This document shows, one piece after another, positions 7,310 through 55,582 of a DNA stretch of 64,000 nucleotides. Every line of letters begins with the position of its first letter. Position 1 is the first letter of the stretch. A program made the translations under genes and the position numbers. The DNA is from Sipunculus nudus (Eukaryota; Annelida; Sipuncula; Golfingiida; Sipunculidae): NCBI GenBank assembly GCA_026874595.1, contig CM049307.1, positions 74,254,643-74,318,642 on the forward strand, given 5' to 3'. The notes below the pieces were generated by a model. That model made no database searches. It saw only the letters and a program-made list of their open reading frames with translations, and had not been told where the DNA came from.

Positions 7310-8061
7310 GCGGCACTCGTGTCTGGCCGCGTATTACATTCTATGTTTAATCCGTACTGGTTGAACTCTCGTTGTCATGTTTGGCCTTGGGTTTTCACGC
7401 TTGGTCGTGGGTCATGTGATGAGCTTGGTATGTGGAGATACACAGCGCTGTTTTTCTGGAGAATTCCTGAAACGCATGTAGACTGTGTTGTGCAAGATCT
7501 TATAGACTGTTCGAGAAGTGGAAGATACTCGGCTTGAGGTGTGAAGGTATATAAAGGGGTGTGTTTTAGAACGAGAGGGCAGAGAGCAGAGAAGATTTCA
7601 GCGGACGCAGAAGCGTGTCAGATTCTAGGACCTTATCCGACTAATGCGGCAATTATAGACTTTCTCCTGGATTTTATACATTTGGACTTCAGTTTACATT
7701 CTGGGTTATTGCAAGAACTTTCCACTGGACTGTCATTCTCCGAGAGTTTACATTTAAAGGACTTACCGTGGTGACGGTGTTGGTATCCAGGTACTGTGCA
7801 CGTTATTTTTCTATGTGATTGTATTGACTTGTTGCTATACCGCTGTTTTACTGTATAATTGTATTGATTTAGTGTATTGTATTGTTAGGGTTGTTTTAAG
7901 AATAAATTATAGTTATTTGTTAACAAAAACCACTGACTTCTTTATTCATTCCTCTAGACATTTCACGCTGCCTAGTGTTACAGAATCTGATTTTTTAATC
8001 TCCGTTACAGAATTTGTGTTCATCACGCATACGTGATCTGTTTGTATTAGGTTCCGTAACA
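7310..8061 (+). mobile_element. Gmr1-like LTR, 5'-truncated (first of tandem pair)
   Basis: Homologous to the LTRs at 27641-28439 and 33727-34550. Landmarks in order: a degraded tRNA-like block ending TTTAATCCGTACTGGTTGAA, a TATA box (TATATAAAGGGG at 7548), an R/U5 region with AATAAATTATAGTTATTTGT, and the terminus GGTTCCGTAACA. The first roughly 100 bp of the LTR are missing. It abuts a second LTR in the same orientation with no internal retroelement sequence between. Confidence 0.85.
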
Positions 8062-8847
8062 TTGTGTGACACGGGCGTAACTCGTGTTGTAACGCTCTTG
8101 CCTGGCCACGTGTTGCACTCTCGGTTTAATCCGTACTGGTTGAACTCTCGTTGTCATGCTAGCTTTCTCGCCTGGTCGAGCCGGAGCGAGCTCACGTGTG
8201 CACCCTTGTATGTAGAGACACAGCGATGTTTTTCTAGATGATTCCTGTAACGCGTGTTTACTGTGTATTATGTTAGATTGTTCTAGAAATAGAAGCTTCT
8301 CGGCTTGAGGTGAAAAGTAATATAAAGGGGCTGTGTTTTAGAGCCGAGAGGGAGGTGAGAGAATATTCCAGCGGACACAGACGTGTGGGACCTATCCGAT
8401 TATCATGTAATTTCAGGGATTCTACTAACACTTTACAATTTAGTGCTGCCTGCCTCAAGTTACTTTCTGGATTGTTACAAGAGCTTTATATTGGACTGTT
8501 GTTCTCTGAGAGAATTAGTGTGAACTGTTCGCCGGATTATACATTTTAAAGGACATATCGTTGTGAAAGTGGTGGTATCCAGGTACTGTTTCTTTTTTTA
8601 TATTTAACTGTGTGGTTGTATTAATTATGTGTGATACTGTGTCATTGTATTGATTTAGTGCATTGTAATGTTAGGGTTGTTTTAAGAATAAACTATAGTT
8701 ATTTGTTAACAAAATAACACTGACTTCTTTATTCATTCCCCTAGACATTTCACCCTGCCTAGTGGTACAAAATCTGATTTTTTTATCTCCTCGGCAAGGT
8801 TTGTGTTCATCACGCATATGTGATCTGTTGATATTAGGTTCCGTAAC
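8062..8847 (+). mobile_element. Gmr1-like LTR, 5'-truncated (second of tandem pair)
   Basis: Begins at the point of the LTR just before the tRNA-like block (GTAACTCGTGTTGTAACGC, then CGGTTTAATCC) and continues through the TATA box (TATAAAGGGG at 8321) to the end GGTTCCGTAAC. It lacks the first roughly 95 bp, including TGTTAC. Sequence around CCGTACTGGTTGAACTCTCG is shared with the preceding copy but not with the 27-34 kb element, so the two form their own subfamily. Confidence 0.85.
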
Positions 8848-27640: not shown

Positions 27641-28439
27641 CCTATTGTTTGTAGCGGTCTTATAGATGATTGTTTTATTGTGCACACGGATGTTCTATGT
27701 GTTGTTGGCATTTTGTTTGTGTGCCACGCGTAGCTCGTGTTATAACGGCCTCGCCTGGCCGGATGTTGCAGACTCGGTTTAATTCACATTTGTTGAACCC
27801 TAGATTCAAAGCGTTCTTTGTTCTAGTATGTTCTTTTAACGTGTGTACTGCGTTAGATTCTTTAGATTGTTCGAGAAGTAGAAAATTCTCGGCTTGGGGC
27901 GAGAGGTTATAAATAGGGAGCTGCGTTTTAGAGCCGAGAGAATATTCCTGCGGACACAGAAGCGTGTATGTCAGTTTGTGGGACCTATTCCGATAAGTGC
28001 GGCAATTATAGATTTTCTTCTGGCTTTGTGACGAATCTTATTTGGTCTTCAGTTTACTTTCGGGATTGTTACAACAGCTTTACATTGGACTGTTATTCTC
28101 CGAGAGAATACATTTTTAAGGACTTGTCGCTGTGACGGTGGTGGTATCCGGATACTGTGCACTTTTTTTTTTTTTTTTTTTTTTTTTGCTGTGTGATTGT
28201 ATTGATTTGCTGTTATACTGCTGTTATGCTGTGTCATTGTATTGATTTGGTGTATTGTAGTGTATGGGTTGTTTTAAGAATAAGTTATGGTCATTTACTA
28301 ACAAAGAGCCACTGACTTCTTTATTCGTTGTCCTAGACATCTCACGCTGCCTAGTGTTAGAGAATCTGATTTTTTTTCTCGTTTACAAAATTTATGTTCA
28401 TCACGCATACGTGATTTGTTGATGTTAGGTTCCGTGACA
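27641..28439 (+). mobile_element. 5' LTR of the Gmr1-like element
   Basis: Begins abruptly after (TA)n at 27625-27640, missing the terminal TGTTACAGGTGTCC found in the 3' LTR. It contains a tRNA-like block (27731-27790), a TATA box (TATAAATAGG at 27908), a poly-T run at about 28165-28187, and AATAAG where the 3' LTR has AATAAA. It ends GGTTCCGTGACA. Confidence 0.9.
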
Positions 28440-28445
28440 TAAAAT

Positions 28446-28463
28446 TGAGGGCTCGTCCGGGAG
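28446..28463 (+). other. Primer-binding site (tRNA-Pro type)
   Basis: TGAGGGCTCGTCCGGGAG lies 6 bp after the 5' LTR. It differs at two positions from the standard proline-tRNA primer site of many retroelements (TGGGGGCTCGTCCGGGAT). Minus-strand DNA synthesis would start here. Confidence 0.85.
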
Positions 28464-28606
28464 GCTTAATAGTTTTGAAAATTTATCAGGCCTTGACCTG
28501 CACACATTGTTTTATCATACATTGTTTACAAGATTACATATTGTTTACAGTACATTGTTTACAGGATTTATCTCAGTGTTTTTTGTTATTGTTTTAACAT
28601 CTTAAC

Positions 28607-30045
28607 ATGGCAGATTTCAAACCTGAGACATTTGTTGACGATCCCGACCAGTGATGAACTTGAACAGTTGACAAAGGAACCGTTGTTGCGTTTGGGACAA
28701 CACTTAGGGCTAAGTAAAGCTTTGAGAAAGCCTGATATCATTGCTAAACTCATGCAGGATCTAGTGTCTAAAGGTTTAATAGAAACATAAAAAAATGACA
28801 GCCTTGCCATGCAATTAGAATTTAAAAAGTTGGAAATGCAACATGAGCTAGCATTAAAAGAGAGGAAAGAGAGGAAAGAAGGTTAGAAAGAGAAAGACTA
28901 TAAAAAGAAATAGAAAGAGACAGATTAGAAATAGAAGAAGAAATGGAGTTAAAACGACTGGAGTTGGAAAGACTTAAACTAGAACATACTCTAAGTGCTG
29001 CCCCAACTCACAGTTTTGAACAGTTACTAAACACATTAGACTTGTCCCACCTTTTCAAGAAAAAGAAGATAATAAATATTTCTTACACTTTGAGAAGGTA
29101 GCTGAAAATTTAAAATGGCCCAAGGAAAATTTGAATATGCTGTTATAAAGTGTGTTTACTGGCAAGGCCAGAGAAATTTATACAGAGCTTTCAGTAGAAG
29201 CTGCTGTTGACTATAACCTGTTAAAACGGTTAATCCTGAAAGGTTATGAGTTAGTTCCAGAGGCTTACCGCCAGAAATTCAGAAATTGGGAAAAGCGCAA
29301 AGAACAGACCTACGTCGAATTTGCTAGGACAAAAGAGCAGTTGTTTGATCGCTGGTGTAGTTCTAAAAATGTAATGAAAGATTAAGACAATTTGCGCCAG
29401 TTGATTTTGCTTGAAGAATTTAAGCGCTGCATTAACGCAGATCTTAAAACTTTTCTTGATGAGAAAAGTCGACAAACACTTGACATTGCTGCTCAATTAG
29501 CTGATGATTATTCATTTAGACACAAAATGTCCTTTACTAGCAAGTCAAACCAGTCATTCACAAACAAGAATGTAAATCAGTATGGTCAAAAGAAGTTTAA
29601 AGCGCAGTCATCCAGTACTAGTAGTCCTGATAGTTCAACAAAGTCCATTGCTACACCTCAGTCCATGTCCACTGTGTCTAAGTCCAACAAAGACCAGTCA
29701 TTTTCGAAGAAAATCTGTAATTACTGCAAGAAAGAAGGTCATCTAATATCTGACTGCTGGAAACTTGCGAATAAACCAAATAACAAACCTTCTGGTTTTG
29801 TTTCAAAAGCTATGCATAGCATAGTACAAGAGCCAGGCTCTTTTCATGTAAGTAAGGGGTACAACTCCGTTATTAGCTCTAATAAAGAGTTCGATGCCAT
29901 AAAGGCCCAAGTGCCGTCTGAACCCAAAGAAGAATCCGTAGCATGCGGGGTAAAAACCTCAGTTGATTCCTACGAGGAATTTGATAAGGCTAGGTCCTTT
30001 CAAGACTCCTGTGTGGAGTATTCTTTAAATAAAGTCCTTTTATGA
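28607..30045 (+). pseudogene. gag: gag (capsid/nucleocapsid) of the Gmr1-like element, broken
   Basis: Encodes the structural protein that packages the element's RNA. The ATG at 28607 opens MADFKPETF; a frameshift near 28652 moves into a leucine-rich helical segment, then a lysine/glutamate-rich coiled-coil region (28800-29000). A SCAN-like capsid segment follows (AYELVPEAYRQKF at about 29247; LILLEEFKRC near 29402). A CCHC zinc knuckle sits at 29716-29757 (C-x2-C-x4-H-x4-C). In-frame stops at 29146 (TAA) and 29383 (TAA) interrupt the same frame on both sides. The 3' part is an acidic, serine-rich linker without clear homology. Confidence 0.88.
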
Positions 30046-31690
30046 CTCTTGTTTTAAGAGTCTTGAGTATTTCAAATGAGACCAGGTCCTCTTATGACAA
30101 ACAGAAGTTTGTTTCTGCTGAGGAAAATTCCTCTGTTGACTCCCATGAGGAGTTTGATTTTAAAAAGGATGAAGATTCCTATAAGGACTCTGAAAAAAAA
30201 GAGTTTATGACTGACACTGTCAATGTCAGTTCTTTGTTTGATGAAACTGAGGCAGTAGATTCCTCTCCTTACTCTGAAATGGAGTTATTTGAGCCATTCA
30301 TACATGATGGTCTTGTATCACTTTCAAGTGATTTTTCAGATTCTACCCCTATTAGAAATATGAGGGACACTGGTTCAGGCCAAACTCTCATGTTAGCAAA
30401 CACTTTGCCATTTTCTTATAGGTCCTTTACTGGTGCACATGCACTTGTCAATGGTGTGTTTTCAGACAAACACACTTCAGTTTCGCATCACAGTATACAT
30501 TTAAAGTCAAATTTGATTTCTGGGAATATTACTGTGGGCATAAGAACTACTTTACCCTTTAAGGGAATTCAGTTGCTACTAGGCAATGATTTTGGGGGTG
30601 ATAAAGTACAGCCGGTACCAATAGTGACAGAAAAGCCGTCACTTGGTCAGGACACTGATCCTGAAAGTCAGGAAATTCCTGGTTTGTATCCTTCATGTGC
30701 TGTAACTACATCTATGGCCAAGAAAAACACACATGAGGAGAATGGTCCAGATAATAACTCTCTGGGAGTCACTAGTGACTAGTCTAACGACTCGCCCGTA
30801 CAGGATGTAGCATTTTCAAGGTCAGAACTTATCGCGGAACTGCATAAGGACCATGAAATTTCATGTTTGTTTCCCAGGGCAGTTCCTAAATATGAACAGT
30901 CACAGAACCCAGTTTGTTTCTATGTTAAAAATGGAGTGCTTATGCGTAAATGGCGACCACCTGATGTATGTGCTGATGATGAGTGGGCCATCAAACATCA
31001 AATAGTAATGCCCAAAAGCTTTCGCAATGAAATTCTAAGCATGGCACATGAGGCTCCTTTGTCTGGCCACTTAGGTATAAATAAAACTTATCAGAAAATT
31101 AGTACACGCTTTTATTCGCCTGACCTCAGGAAAGATATTGTACAATATTGTAAATCATGCCATACATGTCAGATGGCAGGCAAGCCCAATCAGAATCCTC
31201 CTAAGACCCCACTTAGGACTATTCCTGCTTTCGAGGAACCATTCAGTACGATTATTGTTGACTGTATTGGACCACTGCCCAAAACAAAATCTGGACATGA
31301 ATACTTGCTGACAATTTTGTGCGCATCTATCAGGTTCCCTGAGGCAATACCATTGCGCAAAATTAATACCAAACGTGTTATCAAAGCTCTGACCAATTTT
31401 TTTACAACTTTTGGATTACCAAAATCCGTCCAGTCTGACCAAGGGTTTAATTTTATGTCTGGCTTATTCCAGCAAGTTATGCTTGAGCTAGGTATAAAAC
31501 AGTACAGCTCTTCGCCATACTATCCTGAAAGTCAGGGCGCCCTCGACGAGCGTTTTCACCAGACATTAAAAATAAGATTAAGATCTACTGCTATGACACA
31601 GGGAAAGACTGGGATGAAGGAATCTACCTATTACTGTTTGCTGTCAGATAATCCTTTCAGGAGTCCTTGGGTTTCAGTTCCTTTGAACTA
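30042..31690 (+). pseudogene. pol: Protease-integrase part of pol, broken
   Basis: One frame interrupted by a TAG at 30780. The N-terminal part holds a retropepsin: D-T-G-S at residues 109-112, and the hydrophobic IQLLLGNDFGG block near 176-186. After the stop comes the integrase: zinc-binding H-x6-H and C-x2-C (about 31047-31170), then the catalytic core with Asp in IIVDCIGPL (31260) and Asp in SDQGFNF (31437), and Glu in the ALDERF block (about 31548). One extra Asp codon precedes the Glu, making the spacing D-36-E instead of the usual D-35-E. The frame is lost near 31640. Confidence 0.9.
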
Positions 31691-32077
31691 GTTTTCGGAC
31701 ATTGACCGCGAACTGAACTTCCGCTGAAACTGCTTAAAGAAAAACTCTTGTGTGAAAAACCTGATTCTCTTGGTTTACTGCAGTATGTTTCAGACTTTCG
31801 CACTAAACTACACAATGCTTGTGAGATTGCAAAGTCAAATCTAAAATCTGCACAAAGTAAAATGAAAACAAAGTATGACAAGCACACCGTAAGTAGGACA
31901 TTTAAGCCTGGTGAAAAGGCCCTTTCCATACTTCCCATCCATGGCAGACTTCTACAAGCTAGGTATTTTGGTCCTTACATTGTTGACAAGAAAGTCAGTG
32001 ATTTAAATTACATACTGTTGACACCAGTTCGGCGTAAGAAGAAACAACTGTGCCTTGTTAACATGTTGAAACCATGA
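31690..32077 (+). pseudogene. Integrase C-terminal (GPY/F) module
   Basis: Continues the integrase in another frame after a frameshift near 31640, with one more stop near 31706. Contains the conserved helical segment FRTKLHNACEIAKSNL, then RTFKPGEKALSILP and the RYFGPYIV module, ending VNMLKP. This GPY/F domain is typical of Gypsy integrases and binds DNA non-specifically. Confidence 0.88.
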
Positions 32078-32122
32078 CAGAAATAGCACATCAGATGCTG
32101 TACAAAATGTTACTGCTGTCAG

Positions 32123-33097
32123 TTGTTTAAAACTGACCCAGTTAAAGTAGATACTGATTGTAAGTGTGATGTAGACATTCAGTGTGGTACAGTACCATTA
32201 AAAAACTCAGACGTGCATCTGGATGCCAAACTGTCATACCTTACCGCACAACAACAACAAGACCTCAAGAACCTGCTGTGGGATTATGAGCATTTCTTTA
32301 GTGACATTCCAACGCGAACTTATATATTGTGCCATGACGTCGATGTTGGCGAGGCAAGCGCAGTCAAGCAGCATCCTTATAGACTGAATCCAGAAAAGCA
32401 AAAGTGTCTACAGGATGAGATTCAATATTTGCTGGACAATGCTTTTATTGAACCTAGTAACAGTTACTGGAGTTCACCATGTATTCTTGTGCCAAAACCT
32501 GATAGAAGTTACCGTTTGTGCACAGATTATCGAAAACTGAACTTTGTCACCAAGACTGACACGTTCCCAATTCCGAGGATCCATAATTGTATTGAAAGAT
32601 TCGGTAGCTCTAGATGTGTACCCAAGTTTGACTTGCTAAAAGAATTCTGGCAAGATCCGCTGACAGAACGAGCGAAAGAAGTGTCCGCATTTGTGATGCG
32701 CAAGGACTGTACCAGTATAAAGTTTGGCATGAAGAACTCGCGAGCCACGTTCAAGCGCCTCATCTATATGGTTGCCAAGGACATTCAGGGCTGCGACGCA
32801 TATATTGATAACCTCATCGTGTACAGCGACACCTGGGAGAAACATCTGCAAATTCTTCGCGACCTCTTCGAAAGACTCAGTGAAGCACGTCTGACCGTCA
32901 ACTTAGTAAAATCTGAGTTTTGTCATGCACCAGTAACATTTTTGGGTCATATCGTAGGGCAGGGTCAGGTAAAACCTGTTGATGCTAAGATAAGTGCTAT
33001 TTCTGCAATTCCTAGACCAGAAAACAAAAAGCAAATAATGCGTTTTCTTGGTATGGATGGATACTACAGGAAGTTTTGTCCTGAACTTTGTAGCTGA
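32123..33097 (+). pseudogene. Reverse transcriptase domain, catalytically altered
   Basis: A 324-codon open stretch carrying the Gypsy RT motifs in order: WSSPCILVPKPDRSYRLCTD (about 32469), the first catalytic Asp in KFDL (residue 170), NSRATFKRLI (205-214), the YIDN box at 227-230 and FLGH at 273-276. The second Asp of the YxDD catalytic box is Asn (codon AAC), which should abolish polymerase activity. The RT lies 3' of the integrase, as in Gmr1-type elements. The frame breaks at 33097. Confidence 0.93.
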
Positions 33098-33590
33098 ACC
33101 TTTGACTAATTTGTTACAAACAAAAGTTTGCATGGAATGTTCAGTGTGAAAATGCATTTCAGAATTTGAAAGCAATTCTTCAAAATCCACCAGTTTTGGT
33201 AGCTCCAGACTTTTCTGTACCTTTTAAGTTAGCTGTAGATGCTAGTGATACTGCTGCTGGTGTTGTGTTGTTGCAAGAAGGCAATGTTGGCATAGATCAT
33301 CCAATTTGTTATTTCTCAAGAAAAGTTTAATGCAAACCAGAAAAACTACTCCACTATTGAAAAGGAATGTTTGGCTTTGATTTTTGCATTGCAAAATTTT
33401 GAAGTTTATGTTAGTTCATCAGTCAAGCCTATTATTTTCTTCAGTGATCACACTCCTCTCACGTTCATGAACAAGTTGAAGCGTAAAAATCAAAGATTGT
33501 TGAGATTGAGTTTGTTCTTACAAGATTACAACCTTGAAATCTAACACATTAAAGGGAAAGACAACGTACTTGCTGATTGCTTATCGAGAT
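33098..33590 (+). pseudogene. RNase H domain, frameshifted
   Basis: RNase H pieces in shifting frames: VAPDFSVPFKLAVDASDTAA (around 33200-33255), VLLQEG, ICYFSRKV, and the C-terminal VLADCLSR block (about 33568). Several stops and frameshifts show it is non-functional. This domain would remove the RNA strand during reverse transcription. Confidence 0.85.
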
Positions 33591-33715
33591 GTTTATTAAA
33601 TGTTGTAACGAGATGTTTATGTAATGTTGTAAATAAGATGGTTTGAAAAGTTGTAATAAATTAGTGATTGTGATCGCAAAAAAGAAAGTTTTGAGAAAAC
33701 TTTCTTTTTTCTTAC

Positions 33716-33726
33716 AGGAGGGGGAG
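33716..33726 (+). other. Polypurine tract
   Basis: AGGAGGGGGAG immediately precedes the TGTTAC start of the 3' LTR and would prime plus-strand synthesis. The junction GGGGGAGTGTTAC (13 bp) is identical in the TRIM at 35674-35686. Confidence 0.85.
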
Positions 33727-34550
33727 TGTTACAGGTGTCCTTTTTATTGTGTGCAGCGGTTTTAAAGATGATTGTTTTATTGTGCACACGGATGTTCCAT
33801 GTGTTGTTGGCATTTTGTTTGTGGGCCACGCGTAGCTCGTGTTGTAGCGGCCTCGCCTGGCCGGATGTTGCAGGCTCGGTTTAATCCACATTGGTTGAAC
33901 CCTAGATACACAGCGTTCTTTGTTCTAGTATGTTCTTTGAACGTGTGTACTGTTTTAGATTCTTTAGATTGTTCGGGAAGTGGAAAATTCTCGGCTTGGG
34001 GCGAGAGGTAATGATAAGGGGGCTGTGTTTTAGAGCCGAGAGAGAGGTGAGAGAATATTCCTGCGGACAAAGAAGCGTGTATGTCAGTTTGTGGGACCTA
34101 TTCCGATAAGTGCGGCAATTATAGATTTTCCTCAGATTTTCTTCTGGCTTTGTGACGAATCTTATTTGGTCTTCAGTTTACTTTCGGGATTGTTTCAAGA
34201 GCTATACATTGGACTGTTATTTTCCGAGAGAATACATTTTTAAGGACTTGTCGCTGTGACGGTGGTGGTGTCCGGGTACTGTGTACTTTGTTTTTTTTTT
34301 TTTTACTGTGTGATTGTATTGATTTGCTGTTATACTGCTGTTATACTGTGTCATTGTATTGATTTGGTGTATTGTAGTGTTGGTATTGTTGTAAGAATAA
34401 ATTATGGTTATTTGTTAACAAAAAGCCACTGACTTCTTTATTCGTTCCCCTAGACATTTCACGCTGTTACAGAATATGATTTTTTTTTTCTCCATTACAA
34501 ATTTATGTTCATCACGCATACGTGATCTGTTGATATTAGGTTCCGTGACA
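33727..34550 (+). mobile_element. 3' LTR of the Gmr1-like element
   Basis: 824 bp from TGTTACAGG to GGTTCCGTGACA. A tRNA-like block occupies 33829-33890. The TATA region is degraded here (GGTAATGATAAGGGG near 34006). The polyadenylation signal AATAAA is at 34396-34401. It is followed directly by CTATATATAATA. Confidence 0.92.
33829..33890 (+). other. tRNA-like segment inside the Gmr1-like LTR
   Basis: TAGCTCGTGTTG (33833-33844) resembles a tRNA A box and GGTTTAATCC (33878-33887) a B box. The starts are 45 bp apart, close to tRNA spacing. Between them CCTCGCCTGGCC resembles the anticodon arm of a tRNA. The block is conserved in the LTRs at 27731, 54907 and 8075. Whether it promotes Pol III transcription is inference. 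Confidence 0.6.
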
Positions 34551-34605
34551 CTATATATAATACACTAGTGATATTCTAATTCTCTTGGTTTACGTTTGGT
34601 CTTTT

Positions 34606-35212: not shown

Positions 35213-35290
35213 GTGTATTCACTGCCGGTGGGAACCGACTTTTCCGTGTATATCAGTTCCATCCCAATACAATGAACCAGCATGGCTATT
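35213..35290 (+). repeat. SINE family B, 3' part
   Basis: GAACCGACTTTTCCGTGTAT followed by CAGTTCCATC and AATGAACCAGCATGGCTATT matches the reverse complement of 47272-47345. The tRNA-like head is missing or unrecognisable. A (CT)n then (TA)n tract follows. Confidence 0.7.
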
Positions 35291-35300
35291 CATACATTTC

Positions 35301-35404: not shown

Positions 35405-35818
35405 TGTTAAGGGGTGACATAAAAGCGGACCGAACTGTCTCGCTAGTGAAGCTTGCTTTTCTAGCGAAGCGGTTGGTACGCCGGACTTGTGCGCCACCGT
35501 TATGGGTTCGAATCCCTGATCGGCCCAGTGTTCTCCCTTAAAATTTGTCTTTCGTAACAAAATGGGGGCTCGTCTAACGTGACGGTTAACTTTGTGGCCC
35601 AGAGAATAAGCTCACCAAAGTCAGACTCCTCGGATAATCAGTCTTGTTCTGATAGCAGAACGCTCTTAAGAGGGGGAGTGTTACGGGGTGACATAAAAGC
35701 GGACCGAACTGTCTCGCTAGTGAAGCTTGCTTTTCTAGCGAAGCGGGTGGGACGCCGTACTTGTGCGCCACCGACATGGGTTCGAATCCAGGATTTCCCC
35801 TGAGCAATTTGCCTTCGT

Positions 35819-35822
<4 letters not shown>
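35405..35822 (+). mobile_element. TRIM (miniature LTR retrotransposon)
   Basis: 418 bp: LTR1 35405-35559 (155 bp, TGTTAAGGGG to CGTAACA), primer site TGGGGGCTCGTC at 35563-35574 (tRNA-Pro type), a 119-bp internal region, polypurine tract AGAGGGGGAG at 35669-35678, and LTR2 35679-35822 (144 bp, TGTTACGGGG to CGTAACA). The LTRs are highly similar over GACATAAAAGCGGACCGAAC and beyond. No coding capacity, so movement would need proteins in trans. It is flanked by ATAT on both sides within (TA)n. Primer site, purine tract and termini match the Gmr1-like element next door. Confidence 0.88.
35462..35515 (+). other. tRNA-like segment in TRIM LTR1
   Basis: TAGCGAAGCGGTTGGT (A-box-like, 35462) and GGTTCGAATCC (perfect B-box consensus, 35505) are 43 bp apart, with GCCGGACTTGTG between them as in tRNA-Thr(UGU) anticodon arms. 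LTR2 repeats the arrangement (TAGCG at 35736, GGTTCGAATCC at 35779). The 3' anticodon stem and acceptor arms do not pair well, so it is not a functional tRNA gene. Confidence 0.7.
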
Positions 35823-35864
<42 letters not shown>

Positions 35865-35868
35865 GTAT
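35823..35868. repeat. (TA)n microsatellite between TRIM and solo LTR
   Basis: Alternating TA with one TTT interruption, ending ATGTATAT at the LTR boundary. Confidence 0.9.
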
Positions 35869-35870
35869 AT

Positions 35871-36703
35871 TGTTACGGAACCTAATAATTGTAAAGAATC
35901 ACGATATCGTGACGAGCACAAACCCTTGTTACTAAGACAAAAAAAAAATAAATTCCCCAACACTAGGCAGCGTGAAATGTCCAGGGGAATATTAAAGAAA
36001 TCAGTGGTTTTTTGTTAACAAATAATTATAATTTATTCGTAGAACAATCCTAACATTGCAATACACTAAATCAATACAATTACACAGTATTTAAGACATA
36101 ACAATAATAAAAATGTACATCACCTGCGTCCGGATCCTAGGCTTTGATTCCTGGATACCACAACTGTCACAGTCCAACAAGTCTTTTAGCACAAATAATC
36201 CACGTGAACAGTTCAAGTAAATCTTCCAGGTGAATAGTCCAATAAAATTTCGAAGACAATCTGTTGTAATTCAGAAGTGAAGATCAGGTAAAATCCCAAA
36301 GGCAAACTGAAGACAATCAATATAAAATCTGTATAAAGTCCACAAAATATCTGTAACTATGAAATTATCGGAGTAGTTCCCAAGACTGACGAGAAAGTCG
36401 CACAATTAAGTGCCCGCTGGTATTTTCCTTTCTTCGGCTCCAAACACTGCCCCTTTTTATAGCTTTACCCCCCCCCCCCCCCCCGAAGTCCAGCAGCTTC
36501 TAGTCCGGAATATTCCAAAGAACAAACTCGAATCTTTTAGACTACAACGAACACGGTATTTTTACACTCTGTGGGTAAGCCAGAGTTCAACAAATGCGGT
36601 TCCCAAAGCAACACACAGTGCTTGCGCCTAAAACGAATCAGAACGCCAGGCACATGTCAAGCCATGCAAATACCTGCGCATAATAAACAGATACATGTAA
36701 CAA
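35871..36703 (-). mobile_element. Gmr1-like solo LTR, inverted
   Basis: Begins TGTTACGGAACCTAAT, the reverse complement of the LTR 3' end, and ends ACATGTAACA. It carries the R/U5 region in reverse (ATAATTATAATTTATTCG near 36022), then diverged U3 sequence and a C-run at about 36469-36484. No internal retroelement region is attached, so it arose by LTR-LTR recombination or truncation. Both edges abut (TA)n. Confidence 0.85.
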
Positions 36704-47271: not shown

Positions 47272-47440
47272 GGTATGAATATCCATGCTGGTTCATTGTA
47301 TATAGAGATGGAACTATAGGGCACAGAAAAGTCGGTTCACCGCCGATGGGAATCGAACCCATGATCTTCCGATTTCCGGTCGGCTGCTTTCACCTCATAG
47401 CTACCACAGATCTCTTATCCCTGTGTGTATTTGCACACTT
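47272..47440 (-). repeat. tRNA-derived SINE family B, inverted copy
   Basis: On the minus strand: upstream CAAATACACACAGGG, a head with GATCTGTGGTAGCTATGAGG (A-box region) and GGGTTCGATTCCC (perfect B box), then GTGAACCGACTTTTCTGTG and a 3' end AATGAACCAGCATGGATATT. The best preserved of three family B copies in the window. Confidence 0.8.
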
Positions 47441-50334: not shown

Positions 50335-51630
50335 ATGGAGGAAAAGCGGAGGAAATACTCCAAGATTACACAATTTTTTACAACCGCCAGCAAAGAAAAG
50401 AACAATGAGAAGACAAATGAAGATATCGCTAGATCATCCAGAGATGACAAAGGTGATACTAGTGACAAGGAAAGTTCTTCACGTTCGTGCATTGATGAAA
50501 TTCCGAGTGAGGGAAATCAGCAGAGACCAGAATGCTCTGTAATACCGACAACAAGCTCTACCGTAGAAGGCCATGATCTTGTCTTTTGAGATGTACCAAA
50601 CCATCCCTCAGACTGCTCCCTCATTCCTCCTAAAGAAACAAAGACCCAAAGGGTCTACTTTCAGAGAAAGTGGTTCAGTCAATTTCCATGGCTTGATTAC
50701 CAACATGACAGCAAAAAAGTCCTTTGTTTTTATTGCAGGCGAGCTGACGCCATGGGGTTGTTAGACCTTAGCAAGTGCAAAGAGCCAGCCTTCATAAAGG
50801 ACGGGTTTAATAACTTGAAAAAAGGCACAGAAAAGTTCGATGGACATCAAGGCTCGGAATCTCATCGGTTTGCTATTCTCCAGCTACAAGCCCATGCAAA
50901 GCCATCAGTGTCCAACCAAATTAGTACTCAGCATGCCAGGAACCAAGAGGCCTCACGCAAAGCACTCGTCAAAGTCTTTCAAGCCTTGGGATACTTGCTG
51001 CGTCAGGGCTTGTCTTTCCGTGGGAAAACACCAGGTGGTGGGAATTTTGATCAGCTTCTGAAACTAATAGGTAGCGAAGACAGTGGTCTGCGCTCCTACT
51101 TAACGAGAACAACCAAGTTCACATCACCATCTTCACAAGAGGAGATGATAAACATGATCGGGCACAGTGTATGTAGGGAGCTGGCAAATAGCATTCGACA
51201 AAGTGGCTTTTTTGCCATCATGGTAGACGGAACCCAGGACGTTTCCGGATTGGAGCAAGAGTCGATTTGCTTCCGTCACGTTGACTCTGACATGGAGGTT
51301 CACGAACATTTCGTTGGCCTTTATCACCTACCTGACACAAGTAGTGAAACCATTGCCAAGATGATTTTTGACGTGATGACACGTCTTGAATTAAACCCAG
51401 ACAATTTGCGTGCACAAACGTACGATGGTGCTGCTAACATGAAAGGAAAGCATAACGGCTGCCAAGCAAAAGTCAAAGCCAAACATCCCTTGGCCCTTCA
51501 TTTCCATTGTGCCTCACATCTTGCGAACCTCGCCCTTGAACATTCTGTGACGGAATGTACACTGATCCGAGATGCTGTCCAATGGGTTCATGAGCTAGGG
51601 GTACTCTTCAAACGGTCTTCAAAGTATAAG

Positions 51631-51844
51631 GTAGGATTTATTACCAATATTCTGTAACTTTATACCACATTTTCTCATGCAATTGAAGCAATGACTGCTA
51701 TAAAGTTAATCTCTATACTACCTCCATAAAACCCCTAATATATCTGAGAGTTTGAGTCTTAAATAAACCCTCTGTTATAAAAGTTTCAAACATTAGTAAA
51801 ACAGTTAAAATGCGCTTATTTATTAATTTCATCTTGAATTTCAG
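51631..51844 (+). other. Intron 1 of the hAT-type gene
   Basis: 214 bp, phase 0, donor AAG|GTAGGA and acceptor TTTCAG|GC. AT-rich, with stops in all useful frames. Its removal joins SSKYK to AIFQDI within the transposase core. Confidence 0.85.
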
Positions 51845-52178
51845 GCAATATTTCAAGACATTGCATCTAGGTCATCAGAGTCCAGTGATACAGATCACCT
51901 TCCGTCGAACAGAAAGAGCATCAGACCTCTTTGCCCAACTAGATGGTTGTGTCGGCTTCCGGCCATCACTTCAGTCCTTGAAAACTACCCGGCGGTTTTG
52001 AAGAGCTTGCAGGAAATGGCAGCATTAAGTGTGTCAGAAAGTTCGGCAAAGGCAAATGGACTGCTTGATAGGTTTGAGAAGGGATCTACTCTCTTGGCAT
52101 TGGTGATGGCAGCAGGTCCAATTGCAATACTCGAGCAGTTGAACAGTTCCTGTCAAGCCCAGTCAGCAAATATCTCAG

Positions 52179-52585
52179 GTAAGATGCTTTTTTAAAATAT
52201 TATGCCCACACAATTTTTGAAGTAAATCAGTTTAAAGTAGAATAGAAAACCAAGTTGAATTTGCAATAACGCAAGCATAATGTGATCACTCAGGGTTATG
52301 CAATGTGCATTATACCCATGTATTATCGAGATTTTTATTATTATCATTTTGCTTAATGCGATACGACCATTTGAAAACTGAATGCAACCGATTTTTTAGC
52401 CATTTCGGAGTACGGAAATATGTTATTTTTAGAACTAGCTCCTTTGAGTGATAAGGGTGTATTGGATTTCCTTTTTAGATGATAATAACAATCATAATAC
52501 TGATAAGTACTATTATTATCATTTTTATTATTATTATTCTGCTGCTGCTCTGTTTGTTAATGTCACTTAAATGCTCTTCTTCAAG
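52179..52585 (+). other. Intron 2 of the hAT-type gene
   Basis: 407 bp, phase 1, donor TCAG|GTAAGA and acceptor TTCAAG|GA. It splits a glycine codon. Contains ATT/ATA-rich low-complexity sequence. Confidence 0.85.
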
Positions 52586-53491
52586 GACTGATAGAGGCAA
52601 CAAATGTGTGCACAGCACAGCTGCAGTCTTTGAGGAGTGAAGAGAATTTCAAGGATATATTTTCCCAAGCATCTGCCAAAGTGGAACTATACGAACTGGA
52701 TCCCTTGTGCCTCCCTAGAAGGAGAAAATGTCCTAAACGAGCAGGCGGGTCAGACAGTCAATTCCACCATGACAGCCCAGAGCAACACTTCAGACAACAG
52801 TACTTCCTCTTCCTGGATCGCATGGTGACAGAGCTACAGGAACGGTTCGGCAGCTCAAACCAAGGCCTGCAGACATACAACCAGCCTGAACAGATTTTGA
52901 TCAAAGGCAAAATCGACTCAGATCAGATGTCTCTGGTCGAGAGGTATCCTGAATTCAAGAAGGAATCACTATCCGTCCAGCTGAGCATGTTCCGGCAAAA
53001 AACAGATGCACAAACATTGCATGAAGCTAAGATTGCATTCCAGGGTATGCATCCAGAGGTGCGTGCGTTATTTTCGCAAGTGGAGATTCTTCTGAAAGTC
53101 TTGCCTGTGTGTCAAGTGACATCCACATCCTGTGAGCGGAGCTTTTCAGCACTCCGACGGCTGAAGACTTGGTTACGCAGCACGATGAGTCAACAGCGTC
53201 TTAACTCCGTCGCCTTGTGCCATGTACACCCCACAGTCCTTGAGGATCTAAACATGCACTCCCTGGCCAAGGAATTTGCTTGTAGATCAAACACCCGTCG
53301 AAATATTTTCGGCAACTTCGAGTAAGAGAGTTTGGTGTAAATCCATGATTCCGTAATTGTGACTTTTTTGTAATTACTTTTTGCCTTGGACTCATTTGTG
53401 TAAAGTGTACACATTTCTTTTGGGCAAACTTGTTTAATACTAATTTTAATACTAATTTTTTTTTACATTTCCAGTCCAACATTTTGTAATT

Positions 53492-54802: not shown

Positions 54803-55582
54803 TGTTACAGGTGCCCCTTTTATTGTGTGCAGCGGTCATACAGATGATTGTTTTATTGTGCACACTGATGTTCCATGTGTTGTGGGCATCTTGTTTGTGT
54901 GCCCCGCGTAGCTCGTGTTGTAGCGGCCTCGACTGGCCGGATGTTGCAAGCTCGGTTTAATCCGCATTGTTTGAACCCTAGATACACAGCGTTCACGTTC
55001 TAGTATGTTCTTTGAGCGTGTGTACTGTGTTAGATTCTTTAGATTGTTCGAGAAATGGAATATTCTCGGCTTGAGGTGAAAAATTATATAAAGAGCCTGT
55101 GTTTTAGAGCCGAGAGAGAGGTGAGAGAATATTCCAGCGGACACAGATGTCAGTTTGTGGGACCTATTCCGATAAGGGCGGCAATAATAGATTTTCTTCA
55201 GATTTTCTTCTGCATTTGTGACGTATCTTATTTGGTCTTCGGTTTACTTTCGGGATTGTTACAAGAGCTTTACATTGGACTGTTATTCTCCGAGAGAATT
55301 TGTGTGAACTGTTCGTCCGGCTTATACATTTTAAAGGACTTATCGCTGTGACAGTGGTGGTATCCAGGTACTGTTCACTTTGTTTATTTTACTGTGTGAT
55401 TGTATTGATTTGTTGTTATACTGCTGTTATACTGTGAAATTGTATTGATTTAGTGTATTGTAATGTAAGGGTTGTTTTAAGAATAATCTATAGTTATTTG
55501 TTAACAAAAAACCACTGACTTCTTTATTCATTCACCTAGACATTTCACGCTGCCTAGTGTTACAGAATCTGTTTCCGTAACA
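54803..55582 (+). mobile_element. Gmr1-like solo LTR
   Basis: 780 bp from TGTTACAGGTG to TTTCCGTAACA. Contains the tRNA-like block (GTAGCTCGTGTTGTAGCGGC at about 54906; GGTTTAATCC near 54954), a TATA box (TATATAAAGAG at 55085) and AATAATCTATAG at the polyadenylation position. No internal retroelement sequence on either side. Flanks show no obvious target duplication and no (TA)n. An open frame inside it (55055-55351) is fortuitous. Confidence 0.9.

Follow-up and report, generated by a model that had tools for sequence, protein, structure and literature searches.

A 418-bp element in the window, by which we mean the whole 64,000-nt stretch of Sipunculus nudus DNA that was analysed, is in all likelihood a Helenus-type TRIM that carries a Pol III-type module in each LTR, was copied from a tRNA-Pro primer by Gypsy-encoded proteins, and was integrated with 4-bp target-site duplications (TSDs). 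As a class (Helenus) the TRIM is ordinary; it is unusual for the genomic traces of its priming and of its mover. The assembly itself documents the anatomy of LTRs, primer-binding site (PBS) and polypurine tract (PPT), the 4-bp TSDs, many copies, arrays, copies of tRNA-Pro fused to LTRs and two Gypsy–TRIM chimeras. We infer that TRIM RNA was co-packaged with the proteins of a Gypsy family whose integrase lies before its reverse transcriptase (RT), that those proteins copied it, and that Pol III may have been the polymerase. In the proposed mechanism, the TRIM is a non-autonomous LTR retrotransposon in which boxes A and B would give each LTR a tRNA-like promoter module of the Pol III type, host tRNA-Pro would prime reverse transcription, and the integrase would put the TRIM DNA in, duplicating 4-bp targets that are often TA repeats. 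Fossil reverse-transcription errors here name a candidate helper and a primer tRNA for an animal Helenus. What is new is this fossil evidence for the copying of a TRIM; for the primer-copy junctions we make no claim of a first report in print. The features of the TRIM are as follows.

35405–35822, plus strand: the whole TRIM, Helenus-type, 418 bp, with a TA microsatellite on either side
35405–35559, plus strand: 5' LTR, TGTTAAGG...CGTAACA
35418–35425, plus strand: TATA-like CATAAAAG in the 5' LTR, found in 66 of 87 LTRs
35462–35476, plus strand: box A-like TAGCGAAGCGGTTGG of the 5' LTR
35505–35515, plus strand: box B GGTTCGAATCC of the 5' LTR, exact
35563–35574, plus strand: PBS TGGGGGCTCGTC, complementary to the CCA end of host tRNA-Pro
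35670–35678, plus strand: PPT GAGGGGGAG, directly before the 3' LTR
35679–35822, plus strand: 3' LTR, about 12 bp shorter than the 5' LTR
35736–35750, plus strand: box A-like TAGCGAAGCGGGTGG of the 3' LTR, one change relative to TAGCGAAGCGGTTGG
35779–35789, plus strand: box B GGTTCGAATCC of the 3' LTR, exact

Re-reading of the letters bore out the coordinates, the two LTRs, the PBS and the PPT given in the first-pass annotation, as well as its description of an A-box-like motif and a perfect box B in each LTR. The LTR pair is 94.6% identical across the first 111 bp, and the length deficit of the 3' LTR falls in its 3' part. Directly after the 5' LTR come AAA and then TGGGGGCTCGTC, whose 12 nt can base-pair with the 3' terminus of host tRNA-Pro(TGG), CCA included (gene in locus L129). 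The TATA-like CATAAAAG is separated from the downstream box A by 36 bp. ATAT is present at each flank of the TRIM and, lying within the TA repeat, is uninformative as a TSD. When up to one mismatch was allowed, box B GGTTCGAATCC had four matches in the window against 0.55 expected, two of which are homologous (the two LTRs) and hence not independent. The element had also been described as without coding capacity, and this appears to hold; one mechanically called ORF of at least 100 aa overlaps it (35586–35963, minus strand) and runs through the TA repeat.

The 1.43-Gb assembly (153 contigs) was searched with the 418-bp TRIM, yielding at least 58 matches (40 scored of 2,231 first-look candidates). 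The 39 stretches that were fetched are the listed matches except the window's own, and represent the copies most like it; together with the window they provided 87 near-complete LTRs, 56 internal regions and 60 LTR-internal-LTR units. Among these LTRs, which were collected by similarity to the window copy, box A is exact in 51 of 87 and has at most two changes in 83, while the corresponding numbers for box B are 37 and 82. The module is thus a trait of the family and not a later SINE insertion in some copies, in line with the reading of the first-pass annotation. A perfect 4-bp TSD was found at 22 of 34 loci, and at 16 of the 26 loci without TA-repeat flanks as opposed to 1.1 by shuffling; six of the 40 loci were left out of this count because an end was not recognised. 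TA-repeat flanks like those of the window copy occur at eight of the 34 loci, and L028 and L045 have identical flanks and are perhaps one duplicated locus. That the TRIM is a SINE-like element or a chance direct repeat with a mere resemblance to a TRIM could be argued from the box A and B motifs that SINEs also have and from the frequency of tRNA-like sequences in the genome (100,426 first-look tRNA candidates, one at 47338–47410); however, the 4-bp TSDs, the TG...CA ends, the PBS, the PPT and the 60 LTR-internal-LTR units make this reading exceedingly improbable.

Several of the TRIM loci are tandem arrays of up to five LTRs each. The LTR pairs of the same element were hardly closer to each other (0.919 identity, n = 22) than LTRs between loci (0.888), and the mate LTR was the best match in only three of the 22 elements (L009–L047 examined). 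Several two-LTR elements carry LTRs of different subfamilies, and a few of these have perfect TSDs (e.g. L045 and L047). A simple canonical insertion does not predict mates that are hardly more alike than strangers; gene conversion or recombination in the arrays, before or after insertion, could explain the mismatch within elements. Diverged TRIM copies of the same plan, with other internal middle parts, were seen at L083, L085, L091, L101 and L104, and among such copies some PBSs (L085, L101) match the tRNA-Pro complement for longer. L092 was considered as an autonomous element with a tRNA-like LTR and was rejected, consisting of just an LTR and PBS joined to DNA without long open frames.

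The comparison, made in the first-pass annotation, with the plant Cassandra TRIMs is sound, in that Cassandra is also a TRIM with a module derived from a Pol III gene in each LTR; its module is 5S rRNA and its hosts are plants, whereas the TRIM described here is tRNA-like and animal, and Pol III transcription, plausible for our TRIM, has been reported for Cassandra (PMC10886601). The accompanying suggestion of an undescribed LTR/SINE-like hybrid class has to be given up. TRIMs with tRNA-like LTRs have already been named Helenus (Kojima, 2024; PMC10886601), and in mechanism the element is an LTR retrotransposon copied from a tRNA primer rather than a hybrid. Kojima recorded Helenus from six animal phyla as well as from fungi and a plant, counted 51 families among the pteriomorph bivalves, and united it with Cassandra and Ajax as 'TRIMp3'; animal Helenus have 4-bp TSDs, the primers in bivalves include tRNA-Pro, and a tRNA prediction in the LTR is obtained for some families only and is not a requirement (PMC10886601). 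The size range of molluscan Helenus, 311–1263 bp, takes in our 418-bp TRIM, and a GGTTC box B module in the LTRs, a PBS, a PPT, a 4-bp TSD, Gypsy-type primer usage, many copies and tRNA-Pro priming are features common to both (PMC10886601). With the published box A consensus TRGCY, the box A of the TRIM agrees at four of five bases, the last base being off (Kojima, 2024; PMC10886601). We assign the TRIM to the Helenus class by its structure, on the published description. In the library searched, we found no primary paper on TRIMp3 or Helenus beside Kojima (2024), and one meeting report in which it is mentioned. Tandem arrays are shared with biv-TRIM of bivalves, which differs in its TDRs of 202–218 bp, its internal domain of 77–80 bp and a canonical PBS that was not identified; unlike our TRIM, it shows no tRNA-like LTR module in the parts of its description drawn on here (PMC6934838).

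The label tRNA-like, as applied to the LTR segment, refers to the boxes and the T arm only. No tRNA was detected by cmscan in the window TRIM, even at E ≤ 5, nor, at the gathering score, in those 20 of the 39 fetched loci that were scanned, and ARAGORN reported a tRNA in 0 of 87 LTRs; a cmscan of nine loci at E ≤ 10 gave one LTR (L113) matching tRNA-Sec with an E of 1.1. In some copies the 3' part of the module resembles tRNA-Pro, with a score of 32 and agreement at 22 of 26 nt for the highest-scoring of the 87 LTRs; in the window LTRs the resemblance is weak, with scores of 24 and 22 against 25 for the best shuffle, the shuffles having been scored on 20 LTRs only. Conservation was measured across 12 diverged LTRs, namely the window's and 11 hand-picked from 30 PBS-site sequences. 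The mean was 0.72, with box A (0.63) among the least conserved parts and box B at 0.81, a value not significant alone (P 0.06 versus random columns). The best 11-column windows of this alignment (up to 0.88) cover the approach to box B and box B itself, and the LTR end is also highly conserved (0.91). These values fit a Pol III-type module that may be under some constraint, in its 3' half only. The SINE at 47.3 kb was considered as a source of the module, and the comparison is not decisive: the SINE scored 30 against the 5' LTR (shuffled maximum 25) and 25 against the 3' LTR (shuffled 28), and the likeness consists of box B and a few bases. The tRNA-derived head of this SINE-like sequence (RF00005, 43 bits) occupies 47338–47410 on the minus strand, and a tail like that of the same SINE, ATGAACCAGCATGG..., is found at about 35218–35300, just upstream of the TRIM.

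Pol III transcription of the TRIM is plausible, and we place Pol III and Pol II at about even odds as the maker of its genomic RNA. In 74 of 87 LTRs, though in neither LTR of the window, box B is followed by TTTT, and Pol III is therefore expected to stop inside the 5' LTR unless there is readthrough; such a terminator poses a problem for Pol III transcription over the full length. TTTT is also found upstream of box A in 56 of 87 LTRs, the window's included. A Cassandra-like short R region ending at this upstream TTTT fits the window copy but was dropped, given the 74 LTRs with TTTT after box B and only 56 with TTTT upstream of box A. Pol II might instead transcribe the genomic RNA of a Helenus-type TRIM, using the TATA-like CATAAAAG of U3; the module would then be a relic or a TFIIIC or strand-transfer site and not a promoter. 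The occurrence of CATAAAAG in 66 of 87 LTRs, the TTTT that would halt Pol III in the 5' LTR, and the poor conservation of box A across the diverged LTRs all favor this possibility, yet the best conserved columns reach into and over box B, and Pol III genes too can have a TATA-like element. On balance, we consider this Pol II scenario a serious contender that falls a little short of an even chance.

The host tRNA-Pro(TGG) gene was found by ARAGORN in L129, with CCA not encoded after the gene; 17 places in the genome, L125 and L130 among them, contain a 33-nt stretch of it. In the Gypsy copy L110, all 18 nt of the PBS, TGGGGGCTCGTCCGGGAT, are complementary to the 3' terminus of this tRNA with CCA added, compared with 12 matching nt in the PBS of the window TRIM. 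When the 18-mer PBS was extended by a short tail and searched against the genome, 67 matches were listed, partly overlapping, among which the 18-mer continues as GATTCGAA at 18 sites and as GATTTGAA at seven (hand count). A total of 17 junction sites were read (L111–L126 and L130), 13 of the GATTCGAA type and four of the GATTTGAA type; these were picked by pattern, and the counts do not give the share of such junctions among all copies. At all 13 sites of the former type and two of the four of the latter, the 18-mer runs into an inverted TRIM LTR from LTR position 115 (in L115 with an internal deletion), and the junction is alike at these 15 sites on nine contigs. The sequence before the 18-mer is a TRIM LTR at nine of them and a Gypsy LTR at two (L116 and L123); at the other four (L111, L118, L121 and L122) it is not an aligned LTR and consists of a short LTR-like end or rearranged pieces. 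At the last two of the 17 sites, L125, after a TRIM LTR, and L130, after a Gypsy LTR, there stand TGG and a copy of tRNA-Pro, 38 nt altogether. Five derivatives had both ends recognised, with a perfect 4-bp TSD in L113, L115 and L124, one mismatch in L120 and three mismatches in L114.

The modified A58 of the primer tRNA is the stop for plus-strand strong-stop DNA. By our reading, the plus-strand strong-stop DNA of the TRIM would end in an 18-nt primer copy, the last 8 nt of which, TCCGGGAT, could anneal to the T arm within the LTR module; after pairing, synthesis would go backwards through the LTR and give rise to the inverted-LTR derivative. In L125 and L130, the A58 stop would have been passed and copying would have ended near tRNA position 38–39, beside position 37, which we take to be m1G37 of tRNA-Pro (the numbering is our own). 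Genomic rearrangements or assembly errors might also produce fused structures, since TCCGGGAT amounts to an 8-nt microhomology at the junction, and the arrays and rearranged clusters of the TRIM family could mis-assemble. Against this, one junction is shared by 15 sites on nine contigs, and the outer ends carry perfect 4-bp TSDs in three derivatives and one chimera. Moreover, the bases CGGGAT (38 nt in two sites) fit the primer tRNA and not the post-PBS sequence of the window TRIM, an argument that is qualified by the longer PBS existing in some diverged copies (L085, L101). Rearrangement or mis-assembly is therefore improbable in our estimation, and products of reverse transcription are the preferred reading.

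One could go further and propose that the tRNA-like segment of the LTR imitates the T arm of tRNA-Pro, the element's own primer, and serves as an alternative landing site for plus-strand strong-stop DNA from which a second, inverted-repeat DNA product would arise, to be inserted by the helper integrase; we offer this as speculation that is rather unlikely to be correct. If true, the module would serve replication and the joining of helper and TRIM genomes, beyond a role as Pol III promoter. Kojima (2024; PMC10886601) reported no complementarity between the tRNA-like sequence of the LTR and the PBS; unlike in the published Helenus, about 8 nt of the LTR T arm here pair with a full-length copy of tRNA-Pro. 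The junction search (18-nt primer copy plus inverted LTR) is transferable to Cassandra and other TRIMs. L080 holds a TRIM LTR whose 18-nt PBS is joined, without inversion, to the 3' portion of the module, an arrangement seen twice running and 60 bp apart. At C14:19086927–19119778 and C9:40605435–40699894, tRNA arrays were seen: pieces of the tRNA-Pro gene form a regular array with a period of about 3.65 kb, and another tRNA array, on C9, has a period of about 1.67 kb.

A degenerate full-length Gypsy copy lies 0.85 kb upstream of the TRIM in the window, with the following features.

27646–34550, plus strand: degenerate full-length Gypsy, the probable helper, with its 5' LTR at 27646–28439 and its 3' LTR at 33727–34550
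27642–27645 and 34551–34554: Gypsy TSD CTAT (4 bp)
28446–28463, plus strand: Gypsy PBS TGAGGGCTCGTCCGGGAG, 16 of 18 nt of the tRNA-Pro complement
30867–31691, plus strand: Gypsy integrase (Pfam Integrase_H2C2 and rve), upstream of the RT
32123–33097, plus strand: Gypsy RT (Pfam RVT_1)
35871–36702, minus strand: solo LTR from a relative of the window Gypsy, sharing the TA microsatellite of the TRIM at a distance of 48 bp

Two ORFs ahead of the Gypsy integrase and RT gave no match in the Pfam search; we take the one with a CCHC motif to be gag-like and the one with a DTG motif to be protease-like. Over 855 bp, L110 and the window Gypsy share 90% identity. More LTR fragments of this group were seen in the window at about 7790–8062, 8490–8847 and 55274–55574. 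The tRNA-Pro PBS is common to the TRIM and the Gypsy family (18/18 in L110), and the PPT/LTR junction GAGGGGGAGTGTTAC, 15 nt in length, is identical in the TRIM and the window Gypsy. The LTR ends TGTTAC...CGTAACA are likewise shared with the Gypsy family, the window Gypsy copy ending in CGTGACA, and the TSD is 4 bp long in both the TRIM and the window Gypsy. A 34-nt pattern that spans the junction of Gypsy LTR, 18-mer and inverted LTR occurs at two places in the genome (L116 and L123), as opposed to 0 for the control. The chimera in L123/L127 is composed of GGTA, a whole TRIM LTR, a Gypsy LTR from about one-third of its length through to its end, TAAAAT, the 18-mer, an inverted TRIM LTR and GGTA. 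In the L116/L128 chimera the Gypsy LTR is present from its start; the flanks are TA-rich, and a clear TSD was not seen. L089, with a Gypsy-like LTR followed by TRIM internal sequence and a 3' LTR, was not scored as a chimera, being possibly a deletion. We conclude that TRIM and Gypsy templates appear to have met in one reverse-transcription complex. Because of the two chimeras together with the shared primer, PPT/LTR junction, LTR ends and TSD length, the Gypsy family of the window is the probable helper of the TRIM.

Weighing against this assignment, there are just two chimeras, the Gypsy copy in the window is a degenerate one, and a tRNA-Pro PBS is also present in other elements (L097 and L109). 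Conceivably the helper was another tRNA-Pro-primed element, for example of the L097 or L109 family, and the chimeras are occasional accidents of co-packaging; several families, these two among them, have the full 18-nt PBS. However, both of the chimeras found involve the Gypsy family of the window, and it is in this family that the PPT/LTR junction and LTR ends of the TRIM occur. The LTRs of L097 and L109 end in GTGACA, a contrast of limited value given that window copies of the favored Gypsy also end in GTGACA while L110 ends in GTAACA. When L097 and L109 were considered as helpers, the primer was the same, but a shared LTR start or leader was not seen. Such a substitute helper seems to us an outside chance, and the Gypsy family of the window is retained as the candidate.

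In the published account, a Gypsy helper for animal Helenus was inferred from PBS similarity, that of fungal Helenus also from internal sequence shared with a Copia, and for Cassandra there was no indication of a helper (Kojima, 2024; PMC10886601). The chimeras described here differ from what is published on Helenus in pointing to a particular Gypsy family (PMC10886601). Integrase before RT is a feature that the candidate helper has in common with Gypsy elements of the Gmr1 clade (PMC6238403; PMC8220671, citing Goodwin and Poulter, 2002), a likeness by domain order alone. Regarding other features of the genome, a C1q domain had at least 141 matches (150 scored of 203 candidates), and a search of the genome for the hemocyanin beta-sandwich, conducted without a positive control, returned no match; such a profile would suit a bivalve, a group in which C1q is expanded. 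The window also contains the remains of a hAT-type transposase (DUF4371 and the hAT dimerisation region) at 50752–53325.
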